A stretch of 13,578 bases of DNA. It comes from a bacterium. GTDB lineage: Bacteria; SZUA-182; DTGQ01. Below, in pieces: positions 7,165-13,578 of the stretch. The notes under the pieces are model-generated. The model saw only the letters and a list, made by a program, of their open reading frames with translations. It made no database searches and had not been told where the DNA came from. Each line of letters opens with the position of its first letter. The first letter of the stretch is position 1. The stretch is taken from NCBI GenBank assembly GCA_023512255.1, contig JAILZY010000088.1, positions 1 to 13,578 of the forward strand. The letters run 5' to 3'. The position numbers were made by a program, and so were the translations under genes.

Positions 7165-7205
7165 AACCGTTCCTGTGACCCATGGACGATGCAAGGAGAC
7201 CGCTC

Positions 7206-8555
7206 ATGAGTAAACGATGCGATGAAAGCCGCAGATGCAAACCTTCTTTCGTTAGATTCTTGACCGCCATCACCCTTTTCTCTCTTTGGCTAATTTTCTC
7301 CCTCAGCCCAGCCTCCACCCTGGCCGCGACTCCACCCGCACAGCCAGCATCTGGACCCGGAGGAGCCGACTATGCCCACCGCTCTGTCAGCACCTCGATT
7401 CATGGCTTTGGCGACTTGCAGTATTATCTTTTCGAACCTGACAACCCCAAGCCCCAAACCGCACCGCTTATTGTCTTCACCCACGGCTACGGAGGCACAA
7501 ACCCGGCCTCATATGGAGCCTGGATCGAGCATATCGTCAGGAGAGGAAACATCGTAATCTATCCGAAATATCAATCCCTGACCTCAATGATTGGCGGATC
7601 CTTCCGCTATACCTCAAATTGTATCTCATCGGTGCAGGATGCTCTAGAGGTCCTCAAAACAGCAGGCCATGTTAAACCAGACCTTGATAAATTTGCCACT
7701 GTAGGGCATTCCTACGGGGGGATACTGACGGTCAATATCGCTGCCTTGGCTCAAAAATCTGGCCTACCCGCCCCAAGAGCGGTCATGTCTGTTCAGCCAG
7801 GAGTTACTCCGGCCATGCCGCTCGAAGACCTATCTTTGATTCCACCCGATGCCCTGCTGATCGTGGTGGTCGGCGACCGAGACCTAGTTGTAGGCAACAA
7901 GGATGCCAAAAAGATTTTCCGACTCACACGGCAGATTCCCTTAGATAACAAGGATTACATTATCATGGTCTCAGACACCCACGGCACCCCCCGCTTGAGT
8001 GCCGATCACTTTGCCCCAACCTCCCTGGCTACGATCGGTGGTCTCCTGCCCGATCCGGGCCGCATAGTGCCTGATTATGGAAGGATCGTGCCTGCGGCCT
8101 TACGGCCATACCTTAGCGGAGAGAGCCTAGGGCCGGACTTCCCCTCATTTTTGCCGGACGCCGAAGGCACTATCCCTGAGTTTGGCGGCATCTTTGGAGC
8201 ATATTTTCAAAATCTTGCCGACAAGGTCCGCTCTTCGACCTCTGAAGAAGATGACCTTTCTAATCCTGACACTCTCTGGCCAGACCCTTCCATCCTTATG
8301 ACTGACTCTGGCCTCCTGCTGCCCTCTGCACCTTCCACAGCGGCTTCTGTGAACCTAGGCAGCTTCATACCGATGTTCGGCACCAATGCACTCGATTACT
8401 ACTGCCTCTGGAAATTGTTTGATGCGCTTACTGACGCGGCCTTCTACGGGAAAAACCGCGAATATGCCCTCGGCAACACTCAACAACAGCGCTACATGGG
8501 AGAGTGGAGCGATGGCAAGCCGGTGAAGGAGCTGATCGTTACCGATAATCCCTAA
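7206..8555 (+). CDS. Secreted alpha/beta hydrolase with an inserted low-complexity region (449 aa)
   Basis: The N terminus has basic residues and a hydrophobic core (about 18-35), then AxA-like sites near 36-41, indicating export. The hydrolase fold shows the oxyanion-loop motif THGYGG (92-97), the nucleophile elbow GHSYGG with Ser169, a candidate acid Asp226 in GDRD, and a candidate His259 in DTHG. This is a complete Ser-Asp-His triad of the dienelactone-hydrolase/lipase type, so an ester-cleaving role is likely; the substrate is unknown. Between about 274 and 392 lies a Pro/Gly/Asp-rich stretch with repeated units such as LLPDPGRIVPDYGRIVP. The C terminus (from NALDYYCLWK to the end) returns to folded-domain composition. 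ATG 7206 is chosen because AAGGAG lies seven bases upstream; ATG 7182 lacks a site. It converges with the small gene downstream. Confidence 0.82.
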   Translation: MSKRCDESRRCKPSFVRFLTAITLFSLWLIFSLSPASTLAATPPAQPASGPGGADYAHRSVSTSIHGFGDLQYYLFEPDNPKPQTAPLIVFTHGYGGTNPASYGAWIEHIVRRGNIVIYPKYQSLTSMIGGSFRYTSNCISSVQDALEVLKTAGHVKPDLDKFATVGHSYGGILTVNIAALAQKSGLPAPRAVMSVQPGVTPAMPLEDLSLIPPDALLIVVVGDRDLVVGNKDAKKIFRLTRQIPLDNKDYIIMVSDTHGTPRLSADHFAPTSLATIGGLLPDPGRIVPDYGRIVPAALRPYLSGESLGPDFPSFLPDAEGTIPEFGGIFGAYFQNLADKVRSSTSEEDDLSNPDTLWPDPSILMTDSGLLLPSAPSTAASVNLGSFIPMFGTNALDYYCLWKLFDALTDAAFYGKNREYALGNTQQQRYMGEWSDGKPVKELIVTDNP

Positions 8556-8780: not shown

Positions 8781-9074
8781 CTAGTCTCCTACCCGGATGA
8801 ATTCTCCCATATCTTTAAAGGTGAAATTAACAAAGATGCGGCTTCCATCAAAATCAAGAACCCGCATATCTCCATCTGGATTCATGCTTTCCACTACCAA
8901 GTCAAAATGATTTCCATAAAGGGCCCGGCATTTTTCCACTGGAACTTCTGATAATATATATCTTTTGAGCCCCTTGTCGTGTAACCTGGCAGTTATATTT
9001 TCATCCAAAAGGTTTTCGTAGGTAGTAATAATTAGAATCGGACTACTACCGCTGAAAATGATTGCTGCCTTCAT
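8781..9074 (-). CDS. Small conserved-type cytosolic protein, function unknown (97 aa)
   Basis: The protein begins MKAAIIFSGSSPILIITTYENL, a beta-strand/turn pattern with a GSSPIL segment. It continues with alternating helices and strands (DKGLKRYILSEVP, 33-45; NHFDLVVESM, 55-64; RVLDFDGSRIF, 71-81), giving a compact alpha/beta appearance. There is no signal peptide or membrane helix. It resembles, from memory only, short uncharacterised proteins that start MKAVxIFTGSGPIxxLTS; I know no assigned function. AGGAG lies ten bases upstream of the ATG. The gene converges with the hydrolase gene and diverges from the large ATPase gene. Confidence 0.65.
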   Translation of the reverse strand: MKAAIIFSGSSPILIITTYENLLDENITARLHDKGLKRYILSEVPVEKCRALYGNHFDLVVESMNPDGDMRVLDFDGSRIFVNFTFKDMGEFIRVGD

Positions 9075-9384
9075 AAGCTGATCACTCCTCTCCTTAAAAC
9101 TTGGCTCTGAAAGAGCAGCCTGATTAAGGTGAGTTATTTATACACCTTCCTACTTATCATTGTAGCACATTCAGTGGAGAAAATAGACTTATTTTGAGTC
9201 ATCATTCTCATTTAATCTTTCCAGTATCCATACTCGCCAGTATCCACACTCATTTAATTTCTTCTACTCCTTTTTTCTTTGTACTTTTAGCCTCTTTATG
9301 ATACATATATTTAATATTCAATTGATTCGATTATTAAGGTTAAAATTTCATTTCTTTTTCTTTTCACGAAGGAACAAAAAAGCC
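9075..9384. promoter_or_regulatory. Divergent spacer upstream of the BrxC/PglY-like gene
   Basis: This 310-bp AT-rich spacer must hold promoters for the small minus-strand gene and the large ATPase gene. It contains the tandem 16-bp repeat listed separately, flanked by the phrase CTCATTTAAT on both sides (9208-9217 and 9249-9258). A long T/C-rich tract lies before the ATPase start. No confident -35/-10 pair is visible. Confidence 0.4.
9221..9252. repeat. Tandem 16-bp repeat upstream of the ATPase gene
   Basis: CCAGTATCCATACTCG (9221-9236) is followed directly by CCAGTATCCACACTCA (9237-9252), with 14 of 16 bases the same. CTCATTTAAT occurs just before and again at the end. Its location about 130 bp upstream of the chosen start codon suits an operator. 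Function is unknown. Confidence 0.5.
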
Positions 9385-12300
9385 ATGCCGAAAATCAAGG
9401 ATCTAATTCAGGTCCCTGAGATCAGGACTGTGGTCAGGCTATCAGATGTCTATGATCGAACTACGCGAAGGTCTATATTTGAAAATTTCGTCTTAACCAG
9501 GCAAGTGGCTGATATTCTGCAAAGGCTTCTCACCTCGATCCGAAAAGGGAAGGGAGAGGGAGCCTTCATCCAAGGGCATTTTGGTTCTGGAAAATCGCAT
9601 CTAGTCAGTGTCTTGAGCCTGCTGTTTCAGGAAAGCGAAGCCTGGCTTCCCATCCTTGAACAAAGGGCAGATTTTCAGGAATACTTTGATACCTTAAGTA
9701 AAGAGCGCTACCTCCTGCTTGATATCTCGCTGGTAGCCAGCAGCCGCGATGAATCTCTGGAGGAGATCGTGCTTGGCCACCTCGACCGCAAGATCAGGGA
9801 GCAGTTTGCTGAACGCCTCACCTTCCTTGATCCGCAAAGATTTATAGCTGACATGAAGCTTCTGATCAGCCAGCGATACCGCAGCCAGTGGGATGAGTTT
9901 GCTCGGGAAAATTCTTTTGTTCCCGATCTCGATCAGCTCTCTCCTGATCTTGCCGAATCCGCAGCTTTGATCAGCCGCTTTCTAACCAGGATTAATCTGC
10001 CCTATCATCTTAGGTTTAATCGCCTTGAGGCATTCCATCGACTAGGGAGGCTCTTTGAGCAGCATCATGTCCGAGGGCTGATCATTATTCTCGATGAGCT
10101 TTCCGAATTCCTCAACTCAAAAAAAGAGGATGTGGGTTTTCATGAAGATATTCGCCTCTTGCAGTTTCTGGCCGAGGGTCTTCCCCCAAGTGCTGAAATT
10201 CCCAATCCATACCCGATCTGGGTAGTGGGCACAGTCCAGGAATACATTGAAGACACTGCCCAGCTTCCCCAGGAGCTGTTAAACAAAATCAAAGACCGCT
10301 ATCCTCTCCGCTTCTCCCTGACTGGCACTCACATCGAGGAACTGATCAGCAGCCGACTAATTAAAAAAAGCCCGCACAGTCAGAAAATTATCCGCACTCT
10401 CTACCAGCAGTACAAATCTGCCTTCACCACCTTGCCCGTGTCCGAAGAACGCTTTCTGCGGCTCTATCCAGTGCATCCGGCCACCATTGATCTTCTGGAC
10501 GATCTCAAGCCCCTCTTTTCTCAGCAGCGGGGGGTAGTGGATTTTATCTACCATCAGATTCGAGGCGGCCCCTCAGCCTCCATGCCTGGCATTCTCGATG
10601 AGGAGGCTGATTTTTTACTCACTCCAGACCGGATCTTCGATCACTTTCTCTCCCGCCTTCAGGATCGGGTGGAAACAAATCCGTATATCAGGGTAGTGTT
10701 TAAATACTACACTGGCGAGATGGCCAAAATACTGCCTGATGAAGAACAGCAGGCTATCGGCTTTCGGCTGATCAAGATTCTGATCCTTTTGGCCATCTGC
10801 CCAGTGAAAAAAAGGTATACTGTGCGCCAGCTCGCTGAAAGCCTGCTGTACAAGGTATCCGGGCTTGAGTCTTCCATAAACTATGACTACATTCGGGAGA
10901 TTCTCGATCAGCTCTACCAGAAGGGCTCTTACCTGAAATTAGCCGAGAGAGGAGAGAGCGCGGCTGAGGATGTTTTGGCCATTGATCTTGAGGCGGATTT
11001 TCAACTGATTGTAGCCAATAAGATCGAGAGCATGAAGCAAACCGTGGCCAGAGAGGATGCTCGAATCTTCTATCGCCTTGGCCAGTCAGTCGATCTGCCC
11101 CATCTTCCCTTGGGCCGAATCATCAGCCAGGGCAGTTGGCCACAGACCGTTAAGTGGCAAAACACTAGTCGTGAGGGTCGCCTTATACTCACTCAACTCG
11201 ATGAATTTCCTCAGGATGCATTTGAGGAGATTCTTCAGGCACTTCAGCAAACCGAGCTTGACTTTGCCCTCCTGATCGGCCCGGCCCAAAGAGCTGAGAA
11301 TCAAAAGAAGGCGGTGTTTGAGCACCTAGCGCCGATCATCCCCCAGGAGCTTAAGCCGGTAGTTTTCTTCTGGCTACCAGCACAGATAAAAGACCAGGAA
11401 TTTATGCGGCTTGCCCTCATATTTCATCTGCTTCAGGAAAAATACTCTTCTGATTATACTGAGCTCGGAAGGCAGATTCACCAATACCTTGAAAAACAGG
11501 CCGCGGCTAATCAAAGCAAGATCAGGGAGGAGTTTACCCAGGCCTATTTTGGCGGGCTAATTGTTAACGGCTATCTCCAGCCAGCCATAGACCTTGACTC
11601 TCTCGGCACGATCGCCTTTGCCAGGCTTCTTGATACCCTGATCAGCCAAGGGCTTAGCAGCCGCTTTCCCAAGCACAAATCAATTGCCCCAAGCATCGAG
11701 TATGTTCAGCGGGGAATTATCCAGGAGGCTATTGAAACCTTCCTGAGCCGTGGGGAGATCATCTTCAGCCATCAGGAGCAGCAGGGAGTGCGGGCCCTGA
11801 TCGAGGGTTTCCTGCGGCCTATGGAGCTTGTGATGCGCACTGCAAACGGCTTTCGCCTGCGGTGCGATGTCCGCAAAAACCCTCTCATTGCTCACCTTAT
11901 CTCGCTCATTCGGACCGATCGAGAGGAACCCTTTGATCAGCTCTACTGGCTGATGCGAAAGGGTGAGTGGGGACTTAGCCGTCTTCAGTTTGAGCTACTG
12001 TCCCTATGTCTAATATTTAGTGGGCTTATCACTCCCTACAGTGGCAAGACGCGAAAGCCTCTTGATCAGATCACCATCTACAATCTGGACAAGATCACCG
12101 CGGTGGGCAAGGGGGAGTTAATCCCGCCAGAGCTTCAGGCTCTTTTGGCTGAGATACCCTTTATGCCTAAAAGGTTCCAGGCAGAATATTGCCTGCCTCT
12201 TCAAGAGGAGGCTTGGAATTTTTTGTCTCAGCTCAAGGAGGAGGAAGAGGAAAATATCCTGATTGCTACCTCTCGATTGTCCAAGCTGGAGAAAGAAAGC

Positions 12301-13386
12301 GAGCTTTTCGGTCTTGCTCAGGAAGGGTTTGAGCGGGCCAGGAAGGCTTTGGCTGCAATGAGCAGCCTCTGGGCAGGTCTTGATACCAATCTTTCGGCCA
12401 GGCAGGGGCTGTCGCAGTTCCTCGACCACTATCGACAAATGCCAGGCTATGGAGAGGATTATCCCCTATGGGGAAGTTTGCGAATCTTCTTATTAAAAAG
12501 ATATGACCGTCTGGTGTATATTGGCCATTATCTTACCCATCCAGGGCTCTTCATCCCTGAGGATCGGTCTGATCTTATCTCTCTGCATCGGCAGATTCAG
12601 GAGCTTATCTCAAGTCCCTATCTTTTCTTTTCCGAGAGCTGTTTTGCGGATCTTGAGAGCAAGTTTGACCGCTTCTGTGAAAGCTATCGGCTGGCTTATT
12701 GCCGAGGGCACCAGGAGTTTTCCTCCCCTGGTCTCTTTGCCCAATATGAGGAGATCAGGCAAAGTCGTCAGTATCTTATCCTCAAGCAACTAGCCCGGAT
12801 CAGCTTCATTTCGGTCAAGGATGATCTTGGCAAGGTGGATCGGCTACTTTCTGCTATCCTGAGCCGGCAATGCCCAAGGGCTGCCGATGAGCAGCTTGAG
12901 ACTGTGCCTGCCTGCTCCTGCGGCTACAGGCTTGGCCAGCAGCCTGATTGGCCAGGGGTGGCTGAAATAAGCTTCCAGCTAGAGCAAGGCATCAGTCAGT
13001 ATCTTCAGACATTTCAAGAGGAAGAATACCGACAGAGGATCATCCCCTATACCCTAACTCTAAAAGAAATTGGCAGGCAGGCTGAGGCAGAAAAAATCCA
13101 AAAACTACTTGAGTTAAGTCAGGAGAGGATCGACCCACAGCAGGGAGTCTGTGGCCTCCTCCTCGACCGCTTGGAGGCCCTCCTTGAGGATCGGGTCATT
13201 GATGCCCTGAATGAAGCCTTTCTTGGCAAGGTTAGGGTGGTCTGCCGCGATCTTGACCAATTGTATGAGAATCTGATCGACCGACAATTTCCGCTGAAAA
13301 AACTGCAAGACATCCTTCAGGAGTGGATCATGGGAGGCGAGCAGCTCGAGGGAGGGCAAATCTATATAAAAATCATCACCAAATAA
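9385..13386 (+). CDS. BrxC/PglY-like (DUF6079-type) large P-loop ATPase (1333 aa)
   Basis: The N terminus follows the BREX-family pattern: KIKDLIQVPEIRTVVRLSD, then ENFVLTRQV, then the Walker A loop GHFGSGKSH (64-72). Walker B is LIIILDELSE (232-241, with Asp237-Glu238), a sensor-like strand is WVVGTVQEY (about 279-287), and a conserved-type segment KIKDRYPLRFSLTGTHIEELI (about 301-321) could hold an arginine finger. The rest, about 1000 residues, is mostly helical, with C1163, C1177 and C1179 (CSCGYR) as a possible small metal site. BrxC/PglY proteins are essential ATPases of BREX and Pgl phage defence; that role here is inference, as PglZ, BrxL and PglX are absent. The open frame extends to an ATG at 9298 with a Phe-rich N terminus. 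I prefer ATG 9385, where AAGGA lies 11 bases upstream and family similarity begins. A truncated gene follows 47 bp on. Confidence 0.78.
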   Translation: MPKIKDLIQVPEIRTVVRLSDVYDRTTRRSIFENFVLTRQVADILQRLLTSIRKGKGEGAFIQGHFGSGKSHLVSVLSLLFQESEAWLPILEQRADFQEYFDTLSKERYLLLDISLVASSRDESLEEIVLGHLDRKIREQFAERLTFLDPQRFIADMKLLISQRYRSQWDEFARENSFVPDLDQLSPDLAESAALISRFLTRINLPYHLRFNRLEAFHRLGRLFEQHHVRGLIIILDELSEFLNSKKEDVGFHEDIRLLQFLAEGLPPSAEIPNPYPIWVVGTVQEYIEDTAQLPQELLNKIKDRYPLRFSLTGTHIEELISSRLIKKSPHSQKIIRTLYQQYKSAFTTLPVSEERFLRLYPVHPATIDLLDDLKPLFSQQRGVVDFIYHQIRGGPSASMPGILDEEADFLLTPDRIFDHFLSRLQDRVETNPYIRVVFKYYTGEMAKILPDEEQQAIGFRLIKILILLAICPVKKRYTVRQLAESLLYKVSGLESSINYDYIREILDQLYQKGSYLKLAERGESAAEDVLAIDLEADFQLIVANKIESMKQTVAREDARIFYRLGQSVDLPHLPLGRIISQGSWPQTVKWQNTSREGRLILTQLDEFPQDAFEEILQALQQTELDFALLIGPAQRAENQKKAVFEHLAPIIPQELKPVVFFWLPAQIKDQEFMRLALIFHLLQEKYSSDYTELGRQIHQYLEKQAAANQSKIREEFTQAYFGGLIVNGYLQPAIDLDSLGTIAFARLLDTLISQGLSSRFPKHKSIAPSIEYVQRGIIQEAIETFLSRGEIIFSHQEQQGVRALIEGFLRPMELVMRTANGFRLRCDVRKNPLIAHLISLIRTDREEPFDQLYWLMRKGEWGLSRLQFELLSLCLIFSGLITPYSGKTRKPLDQITIYNLDKITAVGKGELIPPELQALLAEIPFMPKRFQAEYCLPLQEEAWNFLSQLKEEEEENILIATSRLSKLEKESELFGLAQEGFERARKALAAMSSLWAGLDTNLSARQGLSQFLDHYRQMPGYGEDYPLWGSLRIFLLKRYDRLVYIGHYLTHPGLFIPEDRSDLISLHRQIQELISSPYLFFSESCFADLESKFDRFCESYRLAYCRGHQEFSSPGLFAQYEEIRQSRQYLILKQLARISFISVKDDLGKVDRLLSAILSRQCPRAADEQLETVPACSCGYRLGQQPDWPGVAEISFQLEQGISQYLQTFQEEEYRQRIIPYTLTLKEIGRQAEAEKIQKLLELSQERIDPQQGVCGLLLDRLEALLEDRVIDALNEAFLGKVRVVCRDLDQLYENLIDRQFPLKKLQDILQEWIMGGEQLEGGQIYIKIITK

Positions 13387-13433: not shown

Positions 13434-13523
13434 ATGAATACCCAAGATATCCGCTGGATTCAAAGATTCAATAAGTTCACCAAGGCCCTTGGTCGGTTAA
13501 AAAAATTCGCTCTTATTTATTAG
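13434..13523 (+). pseudogene. 5' fragment of an HI0074-like (HEPN-type) nucleotidyltransferase-partner gene
   Basis: The 29-codon frame MNTQDIRWIQRFNKFTKALG... matches the characteristic start of nucleotidyltransferase substrate-binding proteins of the HI0074 family. These are helical HEPN-like partners of minimal nucleotidyltransferases, many of them toxin-antitoxin pairs. Full-length members are roughly 130-150 aa, so only the first helix is present. GGGAGGGA lies upstream of the ATG. The match ends near Phe25, and the last codons, Ile-Tyr-stop, fall in the first bases of the dispersed repeat that starts at 13515. The gene was probably broken by insertion of that element. The remainder could lie beyond the window edge. 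It follows the ATPase by 47 bp in the same direction. Family assignment rests on about 25 residues. Confidence 0.6.
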
Positions 13524-13578
13524 CTACCATTGAGAGACATAACCCTAATAAGAGCTAAGCCCCTTCGAGGGTTTATGG
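13515..13578. mobile_element. MITE-like element, copy 2 (partial, cut by window edge)
   Basis: This sequence matches 6559-6623 at every base except one missing C after the tetranucleotide CCAT, in the same orientation. Directly upstream GCTCTTAT (13509-13516) corresponds to the GCTC end of copy 1. It is the exact reverse complement of ATAAGAGC at the far end of copy 1, which supports the idea of terminal inverted repeats. The copy overlaps the end of the HI0074-like fragment and provides its stop codon. The right end and any target duplication lie outside the window. Confidence 0.65.

Follow-up and report, generated by a model that had tools for sequence, protein, structure and literature searches.

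A possible stand-alone branch of BrxC-like ATPases outside BREX operons, fused to PglZ-type domains in several relatives

Bacteriophage exclusion (BREX) systems are defined by two proteins, BrxC and PglZ, whose cooperation is still being resolved (PMC13326643). In experiments on type 1 BREX, BrxC was shown to bind DNA and to form dimers that close through ATP at the AAA+ domain, and a BrxB:BrxC:PglZ core was described in which BrxB bridges the ATPase and PglZ (PMC13326643); PglZ itself is reported to be a metal-dependent nuclease (PMC12205998). A 2026 census of BREX was anchored on BrxC and PglZ, and hits that could not be assigned to a subtype were discarded (PMC12839542). Here we analyze an intact gene for a BrxC-like AAA+ ATPase of 1,333 amino acids that stands by itself at positions 9385..13386 of the forward strand of a 13,578-nucleotide stretch of bacterial DNA (hereafter the window), which is the whole of contig C95 in a genome of 172 contigs (G000; assembly GCA_023512255.1).

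The predicted protein scores 129 bits with the Pfam profile DUF6079 (PF19557), whose cut-off is 23, and matches the PADLOC BrxC models at 2.9e-27 and the BrxC chains of the solved Acinetobacter structures at 2e-15. In addition, hhalign aligned the profile of its family to BREX type 3 BrxC over the full length (1,163 columns, E 3.6e-43); since this alignment runs end to end, the window protein has the whole BrxC architecture, beyond the P-loop. The Walker A motif GHFGSGKSH (residues 64-72; 9574..9600, forward strand, as are all features of this gene) aligns with GFFGSGKSH of the solved BrxC, and the Walker B motif (LDELSEF, including D237 and E238; 10078..10110) aligns with LVDE of BrxC, both being near-invariant in the family; by this alignment, E238 is the equivalent of the catalytic E269 of BrxC (PMC13326643). 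R305 (in KIKDRYP; 10297..10299), invariant in the family, aligns with BrxC R330, whose arginine-finger function is taken from the same study (PMC13326643). K70, D237/E238 and R305, all aligned with the solved BrxC and kept in the family, are what is expected of an active AAA+ ATPase at the level of sequence. The original prediction, which had matched the Walker A, Walker B and N-terminal patterns to the large ATPase of BREX/Pgl systems, is thus borne out, with motifs that align with solved BrxC and profile matches far beyond chance. Towards the C-terminus, C1163, C1177 and C1179 (CSCGY; 12871..12921) occupy invariant columns of the family alignment (A3) and could possibly form a metal site at the end of a coiled coil. 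AlphaFold models of the two halves of the protein, made without an alignment, had predicted local distance difference test (pLDDT) values of 34.0 and 33.7 and were unusable.

We took the ATG at 9385 as the true start, as had been proposed, because the 75%-identical orthologue in a second species of the same genus (G002) opens with the same MPKIKDL, the ribosome site GAAGGA (9368-9373), 12 bases 5' of the start, is kept in G002, and the longer start at 9298 has no counterpart in the orthologue. This site lies within a conserved upstream segment (9264..9384, forward strand), delimited by alignment and by the blastn match to G002, which begins at 9264; a search of the region 5' of the gene gave neither a sigma-70-like promoter nor a terminator. 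The two orthologues differ at 226/165/557 sites by codon position, with nonsynonymous (dN) and synonymous (dS) rates of 0.15-0.16 and 0.83-1.07, respectively, and a dN/dS of approximately 0.14-0.20. The gene is functional and under purifying selection, and the intact reading frame together with the low dN/dS indicates that it is no relic, which was one of the two options put forward originally; full-length homologues in other phyla are equally solitary.

The orthologue lies on contig C22 of G002, between a type II adenine methyltransferase gene, which we looked for in G000 and found to be missing, and a pRiA4b-like gene. The left flank of the window (hydrolase, DUF362) corresponds to contig C6 of G002 and the right flank (RecC) to contig C1, neither of them beside the ATPase, and the flanks of the G002 orthologue lie on C130 and C88 in G000. 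The two copies thus sit at different places, with 0 neighbours in common.

In its full-length profile match, order of motifs and size, the window ATPase resembles the BrxC of BREX type 3, a DUF6079 protein encoded beside brxF, but falls in a separate clade of the tree and has no operon with BrxF, PglX, helicase or PglZ. Its AAA+ Walker A, Walker B and arginine finger also align with those of type 1 BrxC (Acinetobacter 9zdx, 9zll and 9zn5), but no BrxA, BrxB, PglX, PglZ or BrxL is found near it. It reaches 94.4 bits with the NCBIfam BREX_BrxC equivalog, below the cut-off of 400, a result that is not decisive alone, because the BREX type 3 BrxC of G002 also fails (54 bits). The match to PglY of BREX type 2 is weak and N-terminal (24.5 bits against an equivalog cut-off of 1700), and other family members score equally low. 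The DUF499 BREX-related (BR) systems likewise have a BrxC-like N-terminal ATPase in simplified loci, but the window has no DUF499 match at a threshold of E 0.1 and no tripartite methyltransferase-helicase locus; no helicase gene neighbours the ATPase.

In a tree of 13 BREX ATPases (types 1, 2, 3 and 6, types 4 and 5 being outside the sample) and 12 non-BREX proteins, all 12 of the latter lie on one side of a branch with a support of 91/90, which is moderate rather than strong since the BREX branches are long. The proteins of the window, G002 and G095 form one starred clade. Neither its context nor its phylogeny places the window protein within BREX, and at about even confidence its family is distinct from the BrxC and PglY of BREX types 1-3.

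Relatives were found by profile searches of whole genomes. Outside the phylum of the window, they occur in 7 of approximately 378 sampled genomes. The phylum of G228 has them in 4/7 other genomes, one of which (G085) is also among these 7, and the phylum of G082 in two more; overall, the family is present in 13 genomes besides G000, from several bacterial phyla. No BREX operon was found in the neighbourhoods of relatives that were read, and the 25 families listed in a PADLOC scan of 85 neighbouring proteins include none of the BREX core. C95 and the initial 20 kb of C36, the contig that probably continues the window (see below), likewise hold no BREX partner. The ATPase therefore does lack the usual BREX/Pgl partners, as first suggested, and these neither lie just past the right edge nor accompany the orthologue in G002 or the relatives, two situations that the original prediction had considered. 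By contrast, the remaining BrxC-like genes in the phylum of the window are part of BREX operons (L013-L016). Plasmid matches are distant, and most of those opened lie in BREX operons, to which a Klebsiella copy and an Aeromonas record lacking annotation at that place could not be assigned. Scans of genome contigs and viral contigs with peptide patterns, which were poorly chosen, gave no confirmed relative.

Some genes recur beside family members. Three genomes of one phylum encode, directly 5' of the ATPase, a small predicted single-pass membrane protein with no Pfam match (L079:12686-13288, L082:8359-9069 and L107:10311-11165), and in three genomes, which represent at least two phyla, the ATPase is adjoined by a related tetratricopeptide repeat (TPR) gene (L077:10745-11815, L078:7244-8227 and L109:12104-13033). 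It is possible that the TPR protein is a partner of the ATPase. The G250 copy of the ATPase is divided between two contigs, one carrying an N-terminal and the other a C-terminal gene (L080:2036-4657 and L081:8744-10318), with AT-rich 'cagattacgcagatt' repeats at both break points; a rearrangement or an assembly error may account for this.

Five of the 13 relatives (G082, G417, G421, G126 and G389) are longer and carry a C-terminal PglZ-type domain with intact metal ligands, and these BrxC-PglZ fusions lie outside BREX operons (L077:5395-10656, L110:42-5357, L083:5206-9489, L109:7453-11826 and L111:6387-9821). The fused tails display the PglZ motifs of the alkaline phosphatase superfamily, namely the first aspartate (IIDALR), TTT, D..LLHE, ADHGF and HGG. 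In hhalign, they gave 96.5% with the PglZ of PorX and 95.8% with BREX PglZ, compared to 0.3% with an unrelated control, and Pfam PglZ detects them weakly. The proteins of the window, G002, G228, G085, G386, G388 and G250 have no PglZ-type domain at their C-terminus, and those of G095 and G157 are cut short by contig ends, so that their fusion status cannot be judged. PF08665 has little power as a test for a PglZ encoded in trans, since it failed to detect the fused domain of G082, and its negatives for G000, G095, G085 and G228 do not amount to absence. Of the partners that the original prediction proposed to survey, PglZ thus recurs, as a C-terminal fusion, and MNT/HEPN pairs do not. PorX-like response regulators with PglZ domains were also observed in four host genomes (L086, L087, L088 and L089), with PorY-like kinases adjoining in at least two.

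These data may be explained by a stand-alone family of BrxC-like proteins that act as compact, DNA-bound ATPases, with PglZ-type chemistry provided in cis or by a partner in trans, a reading to which we give roughly the same weight for as against. ATP binding would drive the AAA+ domains into dimers or larger rings on DNA, as in the BrxC of BREX, and a C-terminal part made of winged-helix and coiled-coil elements would hold this assembly. In the fused relatives, the ATPase engine would deliver the metal-dependent PglZ phosphodiesterase directly, and the fusion would make a bridging BrxB unnecessary. The window copy, which has no PglZ domain, would either recruit a partner in trans or function as a DNA-bound ATPase alone. 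The most probable role would be a compact form of defence, or of surveillance, directed at foreign DNA and lacking a methylation branch. The ATPase and PglZ parts of this proposal follow from sequence comparison, and the loading on DNA, the target and the purpose are inferred. A role in defence is likely, given the patchy distribution and the fact that all of the characterised relatives act in defence. In its broadest form, the proposal describes a partly vertically inherited branch of the BREX superfamily composed of one-gene machines on the chromosome, each with a BrxC-type ATPase that works alone or fused to PglZ, without methyltransferase, BrxA or BrxB; we regard this form as slightly less than evenly probable.

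Several observations weigh against this proposal. The lineage of the window has no PglZ domain, the only PglZ found in G000 belongs to a broken BREX type 3 operon, and the branch that separates BREX ATPases from the others stays below the 95 mark of the tree program. Most neighbours of family ATPases look like ordinary chromosomal genes, and a neighbourhood comprising a peptidyl-prolyl isomerase, a hotdog thioesterase and the small membrane protein directly 5' of the ATPase is conserved in G228, G085 and G386 and partly in G388, which suits a housekeeping function. The ATPase could then be a descendant of the BrxC fold that serves replication, segregation, the envelope or stress on the chromosome and has no link to defence. 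The homologous TPR genes directly 5' of the G082 and G157 copies, with a weaker counterpart in G389, and the scarcity of defence genes nearby are consistent with this idea, but the sparse spread outside the window's phylum, the different location in two species of one genus and the fact that the characterised relatives are all defence proteins (PMC12839542, PMC13326643) make it rather improbable. It is much less probable that the protein belongs, as the ATPase, to a BRC (HerA/FtsK BREX-related capture) system. Such systems pair a BrxC-type DUF6079 ATPase with PglZ outside BREX (PMC12839542), as the family does, but five relatives of the window protein carry their PglZ in cis, as a fusion, and among the genes called beside family members none was recognised as HerA/FtsK, DUF4007, STAND, GNAT or TGT; the family is set apart from BRC by description and not by sequence.

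Compared to the BREX type 3 operon on contig C61 of G002, the degenerate operon on contig C83 of G000 (L092, L098) retains intact BrxF, helicase and PglZ genes, with 78-82% identity to the G002 copies, has its methyltransferase in three pieces and is devoid of BrxC and of a Schlafen-type gene. The window ATPase might thus be an orphan BrxC left after the loss of a BREX operon. However, G002 carries both the BrxC of its BREX type 3 operon and the solitary orthologue, and therefore the BrxC that was lost is a different protein; moreover, the gene is intact and under selection, and its solitary state is repeated in other phyla, so that this explanation is largely refuted. Alternatively, the ATPase could replace the lost BrxC and act in trans with the BrxF, helicase and PglZ that survive on C83, whose preservation while BrxC is gone speaks in its favour. 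The retention of both genes by G002, the broken methyltransferase on C83 and the limited similarity of the solitary ATPase to the type 3 BrxC of G002 (28-31% identity, in short N-terminal stretches) leave it with a very small probability. We consider just as slim the chance of a compact system formed with a neighbouring gene, the candidates being MNT/HEPN and RecBCD for G000 and the type II methyltransferase for G002. Defence-type genes do adjoin the ATPase in both species, but neither set is common to the two orthologues or recurs at other family loci, and the HEPN gene of the window is interrupted. The pairing of the ATPase with an MNT/HEPN module, an arrangement envisaged in the original prediction, is consequently not upheld: no HEPN or MNT gene was found beside the homologues at the loci examined in the 13 other family genomes.

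At the right edge, the window holds the 5' fragment of an HI0074-type HEPN gene (13434..13507, forward strand), a neighbour for which a partner role is unsupported. This gene is cut at 13508 by a miniature inverted-repeat transposable element (MITE), of which a truncated copy occupies 13508..13578; the full element measures approximately 120 bp and has CGCTCTTAT terminal inverted repeats. An 8-bp target-site duplication, AAAAAATT (13500..13507), precedes it, and contig C95 ends inside the element. The same duplication recurs at the start of contig C36 beside the remainder of the HEPN gene, followed by MNT, RecC, RecB and RecD, so that the neighbour is indeed a broken HEPN-type gene, as was first noted. 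We infer the junction of C95 and C36 from the target duplication and the continuity of the HEPN protein, and not from reads. A second strict match of MITE and duplication at a contig start (C87) was rejected, as it continues no HEPN gene. Approximately 40 copies of the MITE, with 8-bp target duplications, were found in G000 (including L019-L047) and none in G002; copies of the element fragment the G000 assembly.

On the left side, the small opposite-strand gene that had been pointed out is present (8781..9074, reverse strand; 97 amino acids) and is an unrelated neighbour, with homologues at G002:C78 (84%) and G001:C112 (61%), neither of which is adjoined by an ATPase. Further away, positions 7182-8555 encode a secreted alpha/beta hydrolase, which has several paralogues in G000 and G002 (51-86% identity).

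Neither the sections read of the BREX census (PMC12839542) nor the open literature searched was found to describe BrxC-like ATPases that stand alone or are fused to PglZ, which is no proof of novelty. A protein that holds BrxC and PglZ in a single chain would offer a simple object in which to follow the effect of the ATPase on the nuclease, without BrxB, methylation or phage recognition. A stand-alone branch that is partly inherited vertically would bear on whether a chromosomal ATPase was the origin of BREX. If the proposal is true, this one-gene branch would represent either BREX reduced to a minimal engine or a stock with no defence function that gave rise to BREX.

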